This document shows positions 1-7,917 of a DNA stretch of 26,044 bases, in pieces. A program made the translations under genes and the position numbers. The stretch lies in the IMG/VR virus record IMGVR_UViG_3300031211_000340, positions 1 to 26,044 of that record. The stretch is one strand, 5' to 3'. Every line of letters begins with the position of its first letter. The first letter of the stretch is position 1. The notes under the pieces were generated by a model. That model was given only the letters and a program-made list of their open reading frames with translations. It had not been told where the DNA came from and did no database searches. This DNA comes from a virus.

Positions 1-42
1 CTGCTTTTGGTCGTCCGATTCCTTGTAGACCCTGACCGCCAT
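1..42 (-). CDS. Partial CDS, start of an unknown gene running off the left edge
   Basis: Only the first 14 codons are visible (MAVRVYKESDDQKQ), continuing past position 1. The start is supported by a strong ribosome binding site, CAAGGAG (minus strand, 54-48), five bases before the ATG at 42-40. It begins 13 bases after the stop of the 65-aa gene at 56-253, so it is very probably the next gene of the same leftward operon. The visible peptide is too short to name a family. Confidence 0.7.
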   Translation of the reverse strand, partial: MAVRVYKESDDQKQ

Positions 43-55
43 AGATACTCCTTGT

Positions 56-253
56 TTAGACTCGTAGCGACCCATCCAATAGGCCGTAGTAGAAATGCAT
101 AAACTTAATCCTGTACTTCTCCAGGTCGGCCAAATAATCAATAGCCTCTGAGTAGTCTTCAGTCCTCGGCTCTTTGTGTCCAAGTCTCTCCATCAGAACA
201 ATCGCGCCCTCTTTGGCCTCACTGTCCTTCTTCCACACGTTATCTAAATTCAT
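56..253 (-). CDS. Hypothetical 65-aa acidic protein in the leftward operon
   Basis: Small, charged, soluble-looking protein with no signal peptide or membrane segment. The middle is probably helical (EDYSEAIDYLADLEKYRIKF, about residues 31-51) and the C-terminus is aromatic-rich. I do not recognise a family. Its ATG overlaps the stop codon of the winged-helix gene upstream (ATGA at 253-250), so translational coupling is likely, and it is followed by a well-marked start of another gene. That places it in a tight replication/regulation operon, but its own job is unknown. Confidence 0.7.
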   Translation of the reverse strand: MNLDNVWKKDSEAKEGAIVLMERLGHKEPRTEDYSEAIDYLADLEKYRIKFMHFYYGLLDGSLRV

Positions 254-567
254 TTGCTCTTCCCCACTTCGCTATCCATTGTTCTCATGAACTTCAAACC
301 TTCTTCGGTCAGGCCATACACGGTGTAGTAACGTTGACGCAAAACGTCAGTTAACCCAAACGTCTTTCCAATCTCAAGCCCCCGGTTTATATTCCTGCTC
401 GGTATTTTGAACTCTTTCGTCATATCTTTTTGCGTCATCCTTAGATTTTCGCCAGACATGTCGTGATGAAAAAGAATTGTTCGCATAATGTGAATGAAGT
501 TTGAATCAACAAACCACCTGTAGGCATCTTGCCACTCTCTTTGCCACTCTCTGCTTACTTCACTCAT
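250..567 (-). CDS. Winged-helix DNA-binding protein, 105 aa
   Basis: The central and C-terminal parts read like a winged helix. A helical stretch (about residues 24-45) is followed by a turn and recognition-helix-like segment (MTQKDMTKEFKIPSRNINRG, about 44-63), then a two-strand wing and final helix (RQRYYTVYGLTEEGLKFM, about 78-95). This resembles the MarR/replication-protein type of wHTH domain, but no close family is recognised. Start and stop overlap both neighbours by four bases (ATGA), so it is co-translated with the candidate initiator upstream. The N-terminus carries a perfect 12-bp tandem duplication that repeats REWQ. It may be a transcription regulator or a partner of the initiator. 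Confidence 0.75.
   Translation of the reverse strand: MSEVSREWQREWQDAYRWFVDSNFIHIMRTILFHHDMSGENLRMTQKDMTKEFKIPSRNINRGLEIGKTFGLTDVLRQRYYTVYGLTEEGLKFMRTMDSEVGKSK
529..552 (-). repeat. Perfect 12-bp tandem duplication inside the winged-helix gene
   Basis: The 12-mer TTGCCACTCTCT (plus strand) occurs twice back to back at 529-540 and 541-552. It is in frame and duplicates four residues (REWQ REWQ) near the N-terminus of the winged-helix protein. This is typical of replication slippage. Confidence 0.95.
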
Positions 568-1574
568 GACACCTTCCCCTTGCGCAGCAGCTGCGCCCTC
601 AATTCTTCAAAGTACCCAAGTTCCGGACCTGTCGCCTCGTCAGCATGTGCCTCGAACTGCTCCAGCACCTCTCGTCTTGTCTCAGTGTAACCCCTGGTCA
701 CTTTGAGGCTGCTCGAATTCGTGTATCCATTGCTCATCGTGCCATTCCTCGGTTTTCGTTTCTTCATGTTCCAGCCTCCTTGCTTGACCCTGCCAATCAT
801 CGTCCTGAGCCATCCACCCCAGTTTTGTATGCCTTTGGCCGCTTCCACTTCCCCAAGTACGTACTCGGTTTGTTCATCGCTGAGCCCGCCAGCCTTAGCG
901 GCTGCTTTGATTTCATCCTGGTCACCCTTTGCGACCTTGTCTGCGTCAATATGTCGACTTGATTTGGTTACCTTGGTTTCTTTTTCTTCTCGTTTAGGTA
1001 AATCCTGACATACATCTTGTGCGTCATGGTCCTCGTCGCACATGTATGTATTAGTTTCTTCGGAGAAGAAGTTAGGATTGTTGAACTTTGAGTTCATTAA
1101 GTCGCGCCACTCAGCAAATCCAGCCAGTGTATAGCGCTTGGGAGGCGTTTTTTCTCTTGAGATATTCTTGTATGAGCCCGGCTGCTTAAATAGAAAGCCT
1201 TCGTCCGTTAACCTCTTCAGGTTCCGGTAAACGGTTACCTTACACATCTTGATTTTTATTTTGGCGTGGATGGCCTCAACGGAAGGGCTGCCAACCCCGT
1301 CGACATCTGTAAGAAAGGTAATTGCTTCGAGGATTGCGCTCATGTATGGGTTAAAGCAGTTCTTGCTACTTAAGTCGGTTAGCCACTTTCGCTTATCTGC
1401 GCTTGATTGCTCCCACTCATCAACCAAATGTCTGTCCGTCTTATATTCTTCCTTTTCCCTGTAGACGGGCGAATATACACCATTGTCGACTTGAGTACGA
1501 TTTGTAACTATTTTCGTATTTTCGTCGATATGCGGTTGAATGGCGCGATCGGAAGGGGTATTATGCCTGGGCAT
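564..1574 (-). CDS. Candidate phage replication initiator / replisome organiser (winged-helix, O- or DnaD-like)
   Basis: A 336-aa protein with a disordered, charged N-terminus (1-75), a winged-helix domain (about 80-150, including SVEAIHAKIKIKMCKVTVYR as helix-turn-helix and a basic wing before KRYTL), a charged linker (about 170-215), and a C-terminal helical domain ending in NWGGWLRTMIGRVKQGGW. A DNA-binding winged helix followed by a small C-terminal domain with that tryptophan signature is the layout of lambda-O or DnaD-like phage initiators that recruit the helicase loader; this is an inference from layout, not a firm match. The start is fixed by AAGGAG seven bases before ATG (1586-1581). 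It sits next to an array of four palindromic 20-bp repeats that could be its origin. A plain transcription factor is the alternative. Confidence 0.55.
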   Translation of the reverse strand: MPRHNTPSDRAIQPHIDENTKIVTNRTQVDNGVYSPVYREKEEYKTDRHLVDEWEQSSADKRKWLTDLSSKNCFNPYMSAILEAITFLTDVDGVGSPSVEAIHAKIKIKMCKVTVYRNLKRLTDEGFLFKQPGSYKNISREKTPPKRYTLAGFAEWRDLMNSKFNNPNFFSEETNTYMCDEDHDAQDVCQDLPKREEKETKVTKSSRHIDADKVAKGDQDEIKAAAKAGGLSDEQTEYVLGEVEAAKGIQNWGGWLRTMIGRVKQGGWNMKKRKPRNGTMSNGYTNSSSLKVTRGYTETRREVLEQFEAHADEATGPELGYFEELRAQLLRKGKVS

Positions 1575-1851
1575 TCAAATGCTCCTTGTGAACAGTGGTT
1601 TTAAAATTTCTGCTATTCCTTGGCGTTAAGATACTTCTTGTGAACGGTGGTTTTAAAATTTCTGCTATTCCTTGTATGACTGTGTTGTTTGCTAGATAAG
1701 ATTTGTTGCTTGCTCGCATATAAATTCTTATTAAAAAGCTTTGGGTCCTCGCGGCCCTTGTTGTCTGCCCTGGCTCTTTTGTCAGGGTACGACACACTTT
1801 ACCTGCGTCTCTCATTGATATCCCTCTTTCATTTTTAAATTGCTGTTCCAT
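1561..1851 (-). CDS. Possible small ORF, 96 aa, doubtful
   Basis: An ORF starting MEQQFKNERGISMRDAGKV has a good ribosome binding site (AAAGGAG, 1865-1859, seven bases before the ATG at 1851). It overlaps the start of the candidate initiator gene by 14 bases, as coupled phage genes often do. Against it: the second half is low in recognisable structure and is read through two copies of a 38-bp direct repeat, one of which carries the ribosome binding site of the next gene. Perhaps only the leader of the operon is transcribed and a short peptide is made. No family recognised. Confidence 0.35.
   Translation of the reverse strand: MEQQFKNERGISMRDAGKVCRTLTKEPGQTTRAARTQSFLIRIYMRASNKSYLANNTVIQGIAEILKPPFTRSILTPRNSRNFKTTVHKEHLNAQA
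1585..1622 (-). repeat. 38-bp direct repeat, copy next to the initiator start
   Basis: Matches the copy at 1637-1674 with one mismatch. On the minus strand it begins CAAGGAATAGCAG, contains the self-complementary core TTTTAAAA and ends at the ribosome binding site of the gene starting at 1574. The spacing between copies is 52 bp. Confidence 0.95.
1637..1674 (-). repeat. 38-bp direct repeat, upstream copy
   Basis: The second copy of the leader repeat. Beyond the 38 bp the similarity continues with decay: where the functional copy has AAGGAG followed by ATG, this one has AAGAAG followed by ACG at the same distance. It looks like a duplicated, inactivated translation start. Confidence 0.95.
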
Positions 1852-1878
1852 TGCGCGGCTCCTTTGCATCCATTAATC

Positions 1879-1888
1879 CAGTTAACTG
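1879..1888. promoter_or_regulatory. 10-bp perfect palindrome CAGTTAACTG
   Basis: A self-complementary decamer lies about 30 bases upstream of the first possible start of the leftward operon. The position suits an operator, but it is short and occurs once, so chance is possible. No convincing sigma-70 promoter for the leftward operon was found close by; TATAGA on the minus strand near 1912 is a possible -10 without a well-spaced -35. Confidence 0.25.
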
Positions 1889-2002
1889 TGTCGAAAACTA
1901 CCGACAGCCATCTATATTCCGGGTTTTAACCTCTGCGTGCAAGCTCAAACGCCATGGGGAGAAGCACCTATGGGAAATTTTTTGTGCCTGTGTTTTTTGT
2001 TG

Positions 2003-2079
2003 GTGACAATTTACGTCACAAAGTGACGCTCTACGTCACAATGTGACAATTTACGTCACAATGTGACAATTTACGTCAC
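2003..2079. repeat. Four tandem 17-bp imperfect palindromes at exact 20-bp pitch: candidate iteron origin or operator array
   Basis: The unit GTGACAATTTACGTCAC occurs at 2003-2019, 2043-2059 and 2063-2079, and a variant GTGACGCTCTACGTCAC at 2023-2039. Each has inverted arms GTGAC/GTCAC separated by 7 bases, with 3-base linkers AAA, AAT and AAT. In the variant copy only three centre bases change and both arms are kept, which suggests a protein reads the arms. The 20-bp pitch puts every copy on roughly the same face of the helix. An AT-rich stretch (about 1973-2002) flanks the array on the left. Four O-binding iterons of similar size and spacing make up the lambda origin, so an origin is plausible beside the candidate initiator; repressor operators are the other reading. 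Confidence 0.85.
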
Positions 2080-2183
2080 TCAGTCAGAGAATTGCCTGGC
2101 ACAATAAGATGAGAGTTGCACAACACACAATCTGCGCGCTATGTTGGTTCTTCGTGATTCCTTTCACGAGCTTTCCTGCCTGG

Positions 2184-2204
2184 GGGCGGATTGATTCCCC
2201 GCCC
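2184..2204. promoter_or_regulatory. GC-rich inverted repeat over the leader promoter -35
   Basis: GGGCGG (2184-2189) and CCGCCC (2199-2204) form a perfect 6-bp inverted repeat with a 9-base centre that contains the putative -35 element TTGATT. There is no T-tract after it, so it is a poor terminator. An operator that blocks the promoter is more likely, though unproven. Confidence 0.4.
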
Positions 2205-2218
2205 TCGATTTATATAAG
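2191..2218 (+). promoter_or_regulatory. Sigma-70-like promoter for the rightward early transcript
   Basis: TTGATT (2191-2196) is followed by a 16-base spacer and TATAAG (2213-2218; five of six consensus bases). Transcription would start near 2225 and run into the structured leader and then the early genes from 2473 on. A weaker candidate lies upstream (TTGCAC 2116-2121, 18 bases, TATGTT 2140-2145). Confidence 0.5.
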
Positions 2219-2224
2219 ATTGTC

Positions 2225-2372
2225 GAGCGTGGCAGCTGGCCCTGTTGCACTCTCAAGACAACAAAGTTAAGATGCCCTTGTTCGCAATTCAACTAACCGA
2301 AAGGTTATAGAGCGGGACTTTCTAGCGATGGGCCTTGCGAACACTTAACCCTGGCCCATGCCGGGGTTTTTT
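2225..2372 (+). ncRNA. Structured leader RNA with terminator/antiterminator choice (putative attenuator)
   Basis: Between the promoter and the first early gene the RNA can form several exact pairings. (a) TGTTCGCAA (2279-2287) pairs over 9 bp with TTGCGAACA (2335-2343). (b) Inside it is a hairpin TAACC-GAAA-GGTTA (2294-2307) with a GNRA-type loop. (c) An intrinsic terminator lies at 2347-2372. (d) ATGGGCC (2328-2334) pairs over 7 bp with GGCCCAT (2353-2359), which overlaps the left arm and loop of the terminator, so (c) and (d) exclude each other. No convincing ORF fills this stretch. The layout is that of an attenuator or of a small RNA ending at the terminator. What would switch it is unknown, and no known riboswitch family was recognised. 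Confidence 0.5.
2347..2372 (+). terminator. Intrinsic terminator in the early leader
   Basis: AACCCTGGC (2347-2355) pairs with GCCGGGGTT (2360-2368) around a CCAT loop, with one G-U pair, and a run of six T (2367-2372) follows. It lies about 100 bases before the first early gene start at 2473, so it would stop transcripts before the gene unless it is bypassed. Confidence 0.75.
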
Positions 2373-2472
2373 ATGTCTAAAATATTCTCGCCAAAACCAG
2401 TCAACCGCTGGTAAAATAGAATAGTTGCGGCGCAGTATAGCAACGACTCCTTTAAGGAATCTGGAGGCGCCC

Positions 2473-2748
2473 ATGCTTTTATTCGAGCTTATCCTTAACC
2501 TCTTAAAGAAATGCTTCTCGTGCTGCTGCACAGAAGTAGAGCAGCCTGAACAACCACAACCCCTAGCGCACAATACGCACAATACGCAGAATGCGAACAT
2601 TCGTGGCGACGAAGACGGCAATCACCATAACAACCACACTTACAATGTGAGCGGAGACGGTCGCGTCTACATCTTTAGCCAGACCGGAGGCAGGAGACCT
2701 GACGACGAGCTCCAGCCAACTGTCATACGCGCGCTCACCTATAAATAG
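2473..2748 (+). CDS. Hypothetical 91-aa early protein with Cys cluster and His/Asn-rich middle
   Basis: The start at 2473 is chosen over in-frame upstream starts because GGAGG lies five bases before it. The first 14 residues (MLLFELILNLLKKC) form a hydrophobic, possibly amphipathic helix. Four cysteines follow within six residues (CFSCCC, about 15-20). A His/Asn-rich stretch (about 34-58) comes next and contains an NTHNT repeat encoded by a 9-bp tandem repeat. The C-terminus is polar. Membrane association by the N-terminal helix and metal binding by the Cys and His groups are guesses. There is no lipobox with a proper signal peptide. It is the first gene of the early rightward block, where phages often carry host-takeover or anti-defence proteins. 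Confidence 0.6.
   Translation: MLLFELILNLLKKCFSCCCTEVEQPEQPQPLAHNTHNTQNANIRGDEDGNHHNNHTYNVSGDGRVYIFSQTGGRRPDDELQPTVIRALTYK
2567..2593 (+). repeat. Three 9-bp tandem repeats (CGCACAATA)
   Basis: Two exact copies (2567-2575, 2576-2584) and one degenerate copy (2585-2593) lie in frame in the early 91-aa gene, giving the HNTHNTQN peptide. It is a slippage-type microsatellite. Confidence 0.85.
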
Positions 2749-2763
2749 AAAGCTAAATGTACA

Positions 2764-2777
2764 GCGTGTTGACACGC
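2764..2777. promoter_or_regulatory. Operator-like palindrome centred on a -35 element
   Basis: GCGTGT (2764-2769) and ACACGC (2772-2777) are perfect 6-bp inverted arms separated by TG. The palindrome covers the perfect -35 TTGACA at 2769-2774, so a bound protein would exclude RNA polymerase. Confidence 0.45.
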
Positions 2778-2797
2778 CTTGTGCGCCTGTGTACCAT
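2769..2797 (+). promoter_or_regulatory. Early sigma-70 promoter before the membrane-protein gene
   Basis: TTGACA (2769-2774, full consensus) is followed by a 17-base spacer and TACCAT (2792-2797, four of six). Transcription would start near 2804, 33 bases before the ATG at 2837. The -10 lies inside the 11-bp palindromic box TGTACCATACA (2790-2800), which recurs with one change at a second early promoter. Confidence 0.6.
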
Positions 2798-2800
2798 ACA
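2790..2800. promoter_or_regulatory. Shared 11-bp palindromic box, copy 1 (TGTACCATACA)
   Basis: Inverted arms TGTA/TACA around CCA; flanking G and C extend it to 5+3+5 (2789-2801). It matches the box at 3784-3794 in 10 of 11 positions, and in both places the -10 hexamer occupies box positions 3-8. Confidence 0.5.
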
Positions 2801-2836
2801 CTCTTGTTTGTGTCCCATCGCTAAATAGGAGTCCGT

Positions 2837-3052
2837 ATGAACAATAATGATGTAAATGAATGGGGGGTTGAAGAAACCCCCTCACACTTAAAGACCGGCT
2901 TTAAGATTTTCGTAATGCTTATAGCCTATGTGGTGGCGTGCGCTATCCCCCCTCTTTTTTCGCTCATTCTCTTCGGGTTCCTTTATGTTGTATCCAAAAA
3001 AAGAGAAGGAGCGGTCAGTCGTGACGATAAAGAAAGTAATCAGCCCCAGTAA
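2837..3052 (+). CDS. Small early membrane protein, 71 aa
   Basis: Residues about 20-53 are strongly hydrophobic (FKIFVMLIAYVVACAIPPLF then SLILFGFLYVV) and broken by a PP turn, so they form either two short membrane helices as a hairpin or one long one. An acidic N-terminus and a basic then mixed C-terminus (SKKREG...) follow. TAGGAG lies six bases before the ATG, and a consensus-like promoter lies just upstream. Family unknown. Possible roles are an early inner-membrane effector such as superinfection exclusion, or a small holin-like protein; nothing in the sequence decides. Confidence 0.7.
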   Translation: MNNNDVNEWGVEETPSHLKTGFKIFVMLIAYVVACAIPPLFSLILFGFLYVVSKKREGAVSRDDKESNQPQ

Positions 3053-3062
3053 GGAGTGCGCT

Positions 3063-3413
3063 ATGGATGAGAGAGATTTTAATGTTCGTCATTTCAGCGC
3101 AGAGATGGCCGACATGCTAGACGAGGACCCAGAGATGCTTCATTCAAACTACAGCGAGCTTAAGAAGGATGACCAGCTCATTGTGTTTGAAGCGTTCTAC
3201 GAGTGCATGTCAGAAGAATTTAGGATTGAGTCTATCGTTAAGTGCGAGGGCTTAAGTCTGATGTCTCGCGTTCTCTTTGAGGCCGGCACGGACGATATGA
3301 ATGATGCGGCTGATGTTCTAAGGGAAGAGCTGTTTAAGTACTTAAGTATCTGCGTGGCAGAGCAGTACGAGCAGTATATTGAGTATTTTAGATTAGTAAC
3401 AAGGACACATTAA
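3063..3413 (+). CDS. Early protein of unknown function, 116 aa; paralogue of the next gene
   Basis: Starts at 3063 (MDERDFNVRHF), where AAGGAG lies six bases upstream; a longer reading frame from 2928 overlaps the previous gene and lacks this support. It is acidic and mostly helical, with no membrane segment. It aligns without gaps over about 100 residues with the product of the following gene. Shared positions include F, L, Y..L, V(F/Y)(E/Q)AF(Y/F).C(M/I), and near the C-terminus YL...V...Y...I. The pair therefore arose by duplication and keeps a hydrophobic core. The stop TAA is directly followed by the next ATG, so they are probably made together and may form a heteromer. Confidence 0.75.
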   Translation: MDERDFNVRHFSAEMADMLDEDPEMLHSNYSELKKDDQLIVFEAFYECMSEEFRIESIVKCEGLSLMSRVLFEAGTDDMNDAADVLREELFKYLSICVAEQYEQYIEYFRLVTRTH

Positions 3414-3782
3414 ATGATTGAAGGACAGCTCAACATAAAGCTATTCAACCTGAAGACCTGCGCGCTCCTCTCTAACTGGGGTGAGCCGATTATCACGGAC
3501 TACAGGGCGCTAACTGAAGAGAAAAAGGAAGATGTGTACCAAGCTTTCTTTGCCTGCATTAACCATGATGGTTTCTATGGCATCATCCAGCTGCTCTTGC
3601 CGACAGCAGAGATGCAGCACGAGTACGCAGAGAGAGTCTTCGCGAAAGACATAGAGATAATCAAAGAAGTTAAGATTAAGATACGAAACTATTTGCAGTC
3701 ACACGTGGGTGGGGCGTATGCAAACCTTATAAAGACCGCGACAGAGTCAGATGAAATTAAACTTGGATTGGACGCACGATAG
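3414..3782 (+). CDS. Early protein of unknown function, 122 aa; paralogue of the preceding gene
   Basis: Follows the previous stop codon with no gap (TAAATG); AAGGA about ten bases upstream serves as ribosome binding site. It is mostly helical. The ungapped match to its neighbour runs from KLFNLKTCALL through DYRALTEEKKEDVYQAFFAC to RNYLQSHVGGAYANLI. It has a C-terminal extension (about 105-122) that the neighbour lacks. No catalytic motif was recognised. Early position and small size fit a host-modulating or anti-defence role, which is only an inference from context. Confidence 0.75.
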   Translation: MIEGQLNIKLFNLKTCALLSNWGEPIITDYRALTEEKKEDVYQAFFACINHDGFYGIIQLLLPTAEMQHEYAERVFAKDIEIIKEVKIKIRNYLQSHVGGAYANLIKTATESDEIKLGLDAR

Positions 3783-3791
3783 CTGTACAAT
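3763..3791 (+). promoter_or_regulatory. Promoter before the regulator/recombination genes
   Basis: TTGGAT (3763-3768, weak) is followed by 17 bases and TACAAT (3786-3791, five of six). It lies in the end of the preceding gene, and transcription would start near 3798, 21 bases before the ATG at 3819. The -10 sits inside the palindromic box TGTACAATACA (3784-3794), with the same register as the promoter at 2769-2797. Confidence 0.45.
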
Positions 3792-3794
3792 ACA
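3784..3794. promoter_or_regulatory. Shared 11-bp palindromic box, copy 2 (TGTACAATACA)
   Basis: Arms TGTA/TACA around CAA; differs from the copy at 2790-2800 only at position 6. It lies 24 bases before the ribbon-helix-helix gene, which suggests autoregulation. Confidence 0.5.
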
Positions 3795-3818
3795 AACGTA
3801 AACAACGCAGGTAATAAA

Positions 3819-4001
3819 ATGGAAAACAGGGTTAAATCAAAACGCATCACAATTCGAATGACGCCAGAGGCAAAGGAAAGTCTTGATGCTGCCGCTAAAG
3901 CTGAGGTGCGATCGGTAACTAATTTTATCGAATCGCTCGTGCATCAGCACTGTCATAGAAAAAAGGCAAAGGCCAAGAGAGAGACAAATGAAACGAAGTG
4001 A
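3819..4001 (+). CDS. Ribbon-helix-helix DNA-binding protein, 60 aa
   Basis: The sequence fits the RHH fold. A beta strand with alternating basic/hydrophobic residues (SKRITIRMT, about 7-15) reads DNA in this family as a paired ribbon. Then come helix 1 (PEAKESLDAAAKAEV, 16-30) and helix 2 (SVTNFIESLVHQHC, 32-45), with a basic tail. Length is normal for Arc/CopG/antitoxin-type repressors. No toxin gene accompanies it, so a phage transcription regulator is more likely than an antitoxin. Its last 14 bases overlap the ERF gene. A promoter with a palindromic box lies immediately upstream, so it may repress its own operon and the other promoter with the same box; this link is inferred. Confidence 0.8.
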   Translation: MENRVKSKRITIRMTPEAKESLDAAAKAEVRSVTNFIESLVHQHCHRKKAKAKRETNETK

Positions 4002-4602
4002 ATCAATTAAAGAAATTAGCGTGGCCATGGCGCTATTTCTTGGTGAAGTAGAGAACACCAGCAAAGATAAAGAAGGCTACGGCTACAAGTATGCCGACCT
4101 TGGCCAGCTCCTATCTTTGTGTAGGCCGTTGCTGTCCAGAAATAAGCTGGCAATATTCCAGTCTGTCGAGAACCCAGAGGGTAACGAAGACCGATGTTGC
4201 GTCCACACTCTGCTGTCACACGAAAGCGGCGAGTGGATAGAGACTCAGCTCTCAATGCCGGTCTTTGCAGGAAAGGGTATGAACTCTGCCCAGTGCATGG
4301 GGTCTGTTGCGACTTATGCTCGTCGCTATGCACTGTCGGCCATGCTTGGCATTACCCAAGAAGATGACGATGGTCGCTCCGGCGGAAGCAAGCCGCAAGA
4401 GGCTATCCGTCAAGCGCCAAGACTCATTGCTGCGTCACAAGTGAAAGAGCTTGAGCGCCTTATCGACTTAGCGGGCCTAGAGCCGGAGGTGGTGACTAAC
4501 AGTCTCAACCTGAAAGCCCTACCTGAAATCGCGGTCGACCAGTATTCGTCCGTTGTCAGACGACTTAATGCCGCAATGAAGAAAAGAGAGGTTGAAGAAT
4601 GA
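3988..4602 (+). CDS. erf: ERF-family single-strand annealing recombinase
   Basis: A 204-aa protein. The N-terminal region carries the family pattern of an aliphatic helix followed by GYGYKYADLGQLLSLCRPLL (about 31-50). The middle has LSHESGEWIETQLSMP (75-90), then the ERF hallmark MNSAQCMGSVATYARRYAL (about 96-114) and a DDD acidic stretch. ERF proteins anneal complementary single strands during phage recombination and circularisation or concatemer formation. The C-terminal part (about 140-204) is a separate helical region. It is paired with a YqaJ exonuclease by an ATGA overlap, the classic exonuclease/annealing-protein pair. The ATG at 3988 overlaps the RHH gene; it is preferred to M14 because the ERF N-terminal helix begins before M14. 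Confidence 0.9.
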   Translation: MKRSESIKEISVAMALFLGEVENTSKDKEGYGYKYADLGQLLSLCRPLLSRNKLAIFQSVENPEGNEDRCCVHTLLSHESGEWIETQLSMPVFAGKGMNSAQCMGSVATYARRYALSAMLGITQEDDDGRSGGSKPQEAIRQAPRLIAASQVKELERLIDLAGLEPEVVTNSLNLKALPEIAVDQYSSVVRRLNAAMKKREVEE

Positions 4603-5204
4603 AAGTTATAGAGTGCGAACAGCGTAGCCCGGAGTGGTACAAGATTAGAGCTGGCATTGTAACCGCAAGCAACGCCCACCGACTGCTCACGCCCGTAAAG
4701 ATGCGAACCTACATGCTTGAGCTTTTAGGTGAGCGATTGATTGGGGCCACAACTGAAACACCGGTGTCCGCTGCAATGCAGTGGGGCATCGACTATGAAG
4801 ATGACGCGCTTGAGTGGTATTCAAAGGCGCTAAATGTCGACGTTCAAAAGGTCGGGTTTGTCTTCCACAACAGTATGAAATATGCCGGGTGCTCTCCTGA
4901 CGGCTTGTGTTCAACAGATGGGTTGGTCGAGGTGAAGTGTCCGTCAACACACAATCACCTGCTTCATATCTCGTCCAGCGTTCCGCCTAATTATATTGCC
5001 CAGATGCAGTTTCAGATGTGGATTACAGATAGAGAGTGGTGCGATTTCGTGTCATATGACCCACGCATGCCTGACTTTGCTAGAGGCATATGTATTCGCG
5101 TTGAAAGAGACGAGAACATGATGTTTAAATTTGAGAGCGGTGTTAGGTCTATCAACAACAGCATCACAGAGTTCTCTCGCAAGTATTTTGGTTCATCGCT
5201 TTAA
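4599..5204 (+). CDS. YqaJ-type recombination exonuclease (lambda-exo fold)
   Basis: A 201-aa protein of the YqaJ/lambda exonuclease family, which degrades one strand of a duplex end to feed the annealing protein. Family motifs are visible in order: QRSPEWYKIRAGIVTAS (8-24), WGIDYEDDALEWY (62-74), GCSPDGL (97-103, catalytic D101), LVEVKCP (109-115, E111 and K113) and YIAQMQFQMW (132-141, with the Q..Q pattern that closes the active site). All expected metal-binding and catalytic residues appear intact and the length is usual. It overlaps the ERF stop by four bases. Confidence 0.92.
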   Translation: MKVIECEQRSPEWYKIRAGIVTASNAHRLLTPVKMRTYMLELLGERLIGATTETPVSAAMQWGIDYEDDALEWYSKALNVDVQKVGFVFHNSMKYAGCSPDGLCSTDGLVEVKCPSTHNHLLHISSSVPPNYIAQMQFQMWITDREWCDFVSYDPRMPDFARGICIRVERDENMMFKFESGVRSINNSITEFSRKYFGSSL

Positions 5205-5212
5205 GGAAGATA

Positions 5213-5515
5213 ATGAGCAACACATCGATACTGCTTACACTCGCAGAGATTACGGACTTCGTAAAAGAGTGTTTAAAGGATAAAGACTTCGTTGGTATTA
5301 ACGTTGTCGTCTCAAAACATCCCGGGCGCTCTTATGTGCTCGGAAAGACGTTCGACAGCCTCAAAGCAAAATACATTTTAAAGGTGCAGATGGACTATAC
5401 TGATCCAATTCAGCGCCCCCTTATCGCCAATGCGGTTCACAAGGGGATGTACGGCACAGAGATGTCGCCTGAAGAGATGGAAGATGAGATGGTTTGTAAG
5501 TCCAGTGACGATTAA
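5213..5515 (+). CDS. Hypothetical 100-aa protein in the recombination operon
   Basis: A soluble, mixed alpha/beta-looking protein (FVGINVVVSKHPGRSYVLGK, then KYILKVQMDY) with an acidic Met-rich tail (MSPEEMEDEM). AAGGAAG lies six bases upstream of the ATG, eight bases after the exonuclease stop. I recognise no family. Position suggests a recombination or early DNA-metabolism accessory. Confidence 0.7.
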   Translation: MSNTSILLTLAEITDFVKECLKDKDFVGINVVVSKHPGRSYVLGKTFDSLKAKYILKVQMDYTDPIQRPLIANAVHKGMYGTEMSPEEMEDEMVCKSSDD

Positions 5516-7362: not shown

Positions 7363-7917
7363 ATGCCTGTAATACTTACATGTCAAAACTGTAGCTTAGA
7401 CTATAGCGTAAAACCATCAAAAAGAGCCAGGTCAAAATATTGCTCGCGATATTGTCACGCAAAAAAAACAATTGCCGTCGAAAGCAAGAAAGAAAAAAAA
7501 TGCAAAGAGTGCGGGAGTATCTTTTCTAGGAGGGCAAGCATTGCTAGTGTGAGGATATTTTGCTCAGTAAAGTGCGCTAAGGTTAGCTGGGGTAGGTCCT
7601 ACTCAAAAAAAGGGGAGGACCACTCCAGGTATGTAAACGGATCTGGGGTCTACAGGGCGAAGGCTATTGACCATTACGGGCCCAGCTGCAGCAAGTGTGG
7701 CTCCTCTGAGCATGTCGAGGTTCATCACGTGGACAAAGACAGAGGCAATAACGAAATTGAGAACCTAGAGGTTCTATGTAGGAAGTGCCACCACAAAGAG
7801 CACTCCATATTTAACTTGAATGGTTGCCTGTGTTGCGGAGAGACCGTTAAAAGGCACAACAATAAATATTGCTCAAGAAGCTGTTTTGCTCGAAGCATGA
7901 GAAAAACAACAAGCTAG
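7363..7917 (+). CDS. HNH endonuclease with three zinc-knuckle modules (free-standing homing endonuclease)
   Basis: A 184-aa protein with four zinc-binding parts. Two N-terminal CxxC...CxxxC knuckles (C7/C10/C27/C31 and C47/C50/C67/C71) are followed by the HNH domain: C109/C112, EVHHVD with H121-H122, GNNEIENLEVLC with the Asn, and CRKCHH 139-144. A third knuckle follows (C155/C158/C170/C174). HNH enzymes of this kind cut DNA at or near their own insertion site and spread by homing. It is the only plus-strand gene within the leftward late block, and many codons are A-rich (runs of AAA), unlike its neighbours, which suggests independent arrival. An alternative role beside terminase is to help genome cutting, as known for some HNH-terminase pairs. 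Confidence 0.88.
   Translation: MPVILTCQNCSLDYSVKPSKRARSKYCSRYCHAKKTIAVESKKEKKCKECGSIFSRRASIASVRIFCSVKCAKVSWGRSYSKKGEDHSRYVNGSGVYRAKAIDHYGPSCSKCGSSEHVEVHHVDKDRGNNEIENLEVLCRKCHHKEHSIFNLNGCLCCGETVKRHNNKYCSRSCFARSMRKTTS

Follow-up and report, generated by a model that had tools for sequence, protein, structure and literature searches.

The four tandem repeats in the window, by which we mean the whole 26,044-bp stretch of viral DNA analysed here (an IMG/VR viral record and a linear fragment), are on the evidence of sequence comparison probably a UAS array for a host NtrC-family activator of the PilR type, located at the junction of presumed early and late operons. In the mechanism we propose, a PilR-type host activator would bind the four units, which would act as an enhancer between the rightward (presumed early) and the leftward (late) operon. 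At comparable loci in other phages, the activator, once on its sites, would reach across some 20-150 bp to sigma54-RNA polymerase at a -24/-12 promoter, and sigma54 transcription of the side opposite the terminase would begin, in what would amount to a copy of the host pilA promoter. In the window phage itself, the array may serve a variant promoter, may be a relic or may titrate PilR.

Layout of the array and its gene neighbourhood

Units of the form GTGAC-N7-GTCAC, all with intact arms, start at positions 2003, 2023, 2043 and 2063, an exact 20-bp pitch that, given the base composition, would arise by chance with a probability of about 1e-20. No other exact match occurs in the 26,044-bp record, and a reversed control pattern has 0 matches there. 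Units 1 (2003..2019), 3 (2043..2059) and 4 (2063..2079) read GTGACAATTTACGTCAC, and unit 2 (2023..2039) reads GTGACGCTCTACGTCAC, differing from the others at three spacer bases; none of the units is assigned to a strand. Direct reading of the sequence thereby confirmed the description given in the first-pass annotation, namely four 17-bp units at these starts with three centre changes in copy 2. The layout can be written >7<3>7<3>7<3>7<, with N7 within a unit and N3 between units. In the viral collection, the out-of-register arrangement <3>7<3> was found only inside in-register arrays (7 contigs compared with 21), which supports the 17-mer as the unit.

Two other kinds of element were considered for the repeats and dropped: GTSAC methylation sites, since the strictly alternating arms imply a dimeric protein, and RNA hairpins, since the arms are often bordered by A and C, which do not pair, from which it appears that the half-sites behave independently. 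It had also been claimed that an AT-rich stretch flanks the array. A mild excess is indeed present, with flanks of 55-61% AT and an array of 60% compared with 51.5% overall, but the AT maximum of the intergenic region lies elsewhere, at ~1683-1743, about 300 bp from the array.

The array sits in an intergenic block (1840..2440, no strand) that is nearly invariant, being 99-100% identical to that of the related contig L009 and somewhat less similar to that of a second relative, L012. The array itself is 100% identical between the window and L009, and in L012 a copy-2-type unit, behind a 24-bp insertion, takes the place of unit 4. To the right, the plus-strand genes at 2425..5204 include those for RHH (3819-4001), ERF (3988-4602) and YqaJ (4599-5204), and it is from this gene content that we presume the rightward operon to be the early side. 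The leftward operon runs from 564-1574 (minus strand) through 250-567 and 56-253 to a TerS-like gene and portal, the latter part being the continuation seen in contigs L005-L007. Given this continuation, the array separates the rightward RHH/ERF/YqaJ operon from a leftward packaging and structure operon, and its earlier placement at a divergent junction, with TerS and portal on the one side and RHH, ERF and YqaJ on the other, was upheld. Following more distant relatives through ERF added no array-bearing contig to the set, L163 proving to be the L012 contig once more, and DNA searches of the phage collection with 1-5300 and with the consensus array gave no match. No array was found in the nearest annotated phages by TerL, which are MW202510, MW202742, Alteromonas phage ZP6 and MW202615 (first 50 kb).

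The region has several further features. A 52-bp tandem duplication, 85% identical, lies at 1562-1665, around the start of gene 564-1574. A small minus-strand ORF at 1564-1851 has a good ribosome-binding site (AAGGAG before the ATG at 1851) and no family match; L009 conserves the first part of it. On the plus strand, ahead of the first rightward gene, a perfect 9-nt inverted repeat (2279-2287 / 2335-2343) is followed by a terminator-like hairpin (2347-2368). The segment 2279-2368 (+) could be a leader RNA, and the overall stability of the fold of this region is no greater than that of shuffles. An HNH endonuclease gene (7363-7917, +), encoded on the opposite strand, separates the terminase region from a putative lysis gene, and no Rfam families or tRNAs were found in the window.

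Recurrence of the unit beside sigma54 promoters and pilin genes

The exact pattern unit-N3-unit occurs in 21 viral contigs, compared with 1 for a scrambled half-site of equal composition, and there are 15 occurrences in prokaryotic genomes (257 Gb searched). When the gap was allowed to vary, start-to-start distances of 20-22, 33-34 and 40-42 bp were frequent among the matches listed, as was a 24/36/48 group consisting mostly of coding repeats; loci with pitches of 24, 36 and 48, judged from their sequences to be coding repeats, were used as controls. Among the matches listed, many 33-bp pairs read >7<3>0<3>7< around GTGACGTCAC, in exact form or with one half-site eroded; in many loci of the 40-42 class two exact units enclose a degenerate one. 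This dyad form or one near it, centred on GTGACGTCAC with 33-34 bp spacing, is seen at L047, L075, L093, L107, L113, L128, L139 and L142. Across phages the arms are kept while the spacers vary. The carriers are dozens of unrelated environmental phage contigs, usually with the array just upstream of the terminase/late operon; counts of loci throughout include related loci and are not counts of independent events. Terminase and portal are the families most widely common near arrays, each in subsets of the loci, and no regulator gene common to the array neighbourhoods was found. The terminase gene points away from the array at 31 of the 34 loci that have one, the exceptions being the window family, in which TerL instead faces the array.

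Scanning for TGGCACG-N4-TTGCA revealed perfect or near-perfect sigma54 boxes adjoining many arrays. With a box defined as scoring at least 13.5 bits, lying within 250 bp and facing away from the array, boxes were found at 17 of 24 loci with a pitch of 39-44, 9 of 18 with 32-35, 3 of 20 with 21-23 and 5 of 22 with 20. Beside the coding-repeat controls there were none (0/34), and the background elsewhere was ~0.01-0.02 boxes per 500 bases of strand. The combined pattern of UAS and sigma54 promoter was present in 34 contigs, compared with 8 when the UAS was scrambled, or roughly 19 compared with 4 after obvious duplicates among the newly fetched contigs had been removed by eye. The canonical N5 gap between -24 and -12 was counted 17 times and other gaps were single cases, except for N6 and N13 (four each), whose members are mainly of the window family. 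The box is directed to the side opposite TerL in 18 of 19 loci, so the driven operon would be that on the non-terminase side, which is presumably early. The initial suggestion that operators are arrayed where the two operons diverge is therefore borne out in outline, as the units recur upstream of terminase operons, often with a sigma54 promoter pointing the opposite way.

Most two-unit loci of pitch 20 have no sigma54 box, and part of this set is a different element. In a separate group of GTGAC-N7-GTCAC pairs without a box (L024, L030, L037, L039, L040 and L043), from contigs that are mostly planctomycete and verrucomicrobial, the pair lies at most ~50 bp from the same end of a common ORF of roughly 400-630 aa. 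The L040 member of this ORF has no NCBIfam or PHROG match and that of L030 no NCBIfam match.

In bacterial chromosomes, the unit stands before sigma54 promoters of pilA, and six loci have it ahead of a type IV pilin gene. Across 369 genomes of one class, the pattern unit + N85-115 + TGGC-N7-TTGC gave five matches where a hand estimate would expect ~1.4; two lie before pilin genes, two in coding sequence and one without clear context. Proteins with the domains Response_reg, Sigma54_activat and HTH_8, which is the architecture of PilR, are encoded beside all three pilin loci examined. The pilin UAS of P. aeruginosa reads TGTGACACTTTTTGACA (PMC6755734) and resembles the GTGAC-N7-GTCAC unit. The PilR-dependent sigma54 promoter of pilA in Pseudomonas aeruginosa (PMC6058289, PMC6755734) has half-sites similar to those of the window, which differs in that it belongs to a phage, repeats the unit four times in tandem, exactly 20 bp apart, and has misspaced -24/-12 elements. 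The window was searched for an activator by ORF and family scans, and the Sigma54_activat domain was found in 0 of 21 array-bearing phage contigs, compared with 14 of 14 control genomes. As the array-bearing contigs tested have no such domain, the binder of the phage arrays is probably the PilR of the host.

Near the array in the window, L009 and L012, no canonical TGGCAC-N5-TTGC was found. A sigma54-like -24 element, TGGCAC (2097-2102), and a -12 element, TTGCA (2116-2120), are present on the plus strand (2097..2120), 17 bp to the right of the array and unchanged in L009 and L012. However, the gap between them is 13 nt rather than 5. Under the sigma54 spacing rule an N13 gap should not work, and the function of the pair is doubtful. 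A profile built from the sigma54-linked loci places one of the window's spacer types among the best 1.7% of random spacers and the other among the best 3.9%, the spacers of units 1 to 3 fitting it. The 17-mer of unit 2 recurs unaltered, in reverse-complement form, at L142, a phage locus linked to sigma54. Because these spacers fit the sigma54-linked class, a PilR-type enhancer array is the best reading of the window's repeats.

Other explanations of the array

The first-pass annotation had favoured a lambda-type iteron origin, in which the product of gene 564-1574 binds the units, opens the adjacent DNA and starts replication. The lambda ori iterons, bound by O, are likewise four direct repeats of similar size, and the 564-1574 product has only marginal PHROG matches to replication families (E 0.004-0.015), primosomal and O-like families among them. 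In L013 a similar pair lies upstream of a DnaD/O-like gene, though the L013 spacers miss the profile. A lambda-O-like protein is expected to change together with its sites, whereas between the window and L009 the array is unchanged and the putative winged-helix segment of the product (residues 76-135) is 48% identical, compared with 93% for residues 166-237. Furthermore, the lambda iterons lie inside the initiator gene, whereas the window array lies outside it and stays constant while the proposed initiator varies, and the neighbouring DNA is mildly AT-rich with no strong AT-rich element adjoining the array. In most other array-bearing contigs, no relative of the 564-1574 product was found in the flanks examined. 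Given also that the units recur before chromosomal pilA, we regard an iteron origin as very unlikely. Within the product itself, residues ~57-165, in the N-terminal part, are exchanged or fast-evolving between relatives and the C-terminal half is nearly invariant. A tblastn search of the phage collection with it gave no match, and its predicted structure was unusable (pLDDT 37).

The array might also be the operator of a regulator encoded by the phage, be it the RHH protein (3819-4001) or a different small protein that binds DNA, which would repress or co-ordinate both divergent operons. RHH proteins in general bind arrays of this kind, the gene lies in the rightward operon with relatives in L009 (100%) and L012 (52%), and no sigma54 promoter is visible in the window. 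In addition, the half-site is identical to that of matS, GTGACRNYGTCAC, which is bound by the RHH protein MatP; matS, however, has a spacer of 3 and dispersed sites, whereas the window units have a spacer of 7 and are arrayed. Among 32 array-bearing contigs RHH_1 gave two weak sub-threshold matches, and RHH as the general binding protein of the arrays was rejected on this near-absence. Together with the match of the spacers to the sigma54-linked class, this makes a phage-encoded regulator unlikely, though it is the alternative we would take most seriously. That the array is instead what is left of a UAS-sigma54 promoter, its -24 and -12 elements having drifted apart, and is now idle or, hypothetically, titrates PilR so as to lower pilus expression during infection, would account for the class of site, for four intact units and for misspaced elements that are invariant in three contigs. 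However, the invariant block may reflect no more than recent common descent or exchange, and the -24-like and -12-like elements could be coincidence, so we consider such a decoy or relic improbable. The location of arrays upstream of away-facing terminase genes, and the TerS-like gene in the leftward operon of the window family, would suit recognition by the small terminase, with the array as a packaging site (pac or cos), but the half-site is common to phages with unrelated terminase families, the sigma54 boxes point the opposite way and the unit also precedes chromosomal pilA. Of the explanations considered, a packaging site has the slimmest chance.

A probable host pilus regulator at phage promoters

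What comparison of the loci supports for the PilR-type enhancer is the class of site, its recurrence, its coupling to sigma54 promoters in phages, its chromosomal coupling to pilA and to genes of the PilR type, and the finding of no activator gene in 21 phage contigs. From these we infer three further steps: binding by PilR itself, the early nature of the driven side, and recognition of the window array by the same protein. The -24/-12 promoters of Pseudomonas phage YuA, which are reportedly dependent on host rpoN, provide a precedent. The YuA record (NC_010116) annotates promoters of -24/-12 consensus with high activity, and these are phage promoters of the same annotated type; unlike the array-linked ones they lie in the structural region, and no GTGAC-N7-GTCAC array was found in YuA. 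A search of the open-access literature, with most subscription journals outside its reach, found no paper describing a phage design of PilR-type enhancer and sigma54 promoter.

Phage early promoters are usually thought to be of the sigma70 type, and pilin is a common phage receptor. The occurrence of pilA-type sites beside the presumed early promoters of many unrelated phages suggests that a host pilus regulator has been borrowed. More tentatively, many unrelated environmental phages may run their early operon through host PilR and sigma54, with infection beginning solely, or most readily, in piliated cells, and the window lineage may use PilR in a new way or titrate it. If this is true, a recurrent design of host enhancer and sigma54 promoter that copies the pilin promoter would make the onset of infection depend on host state.
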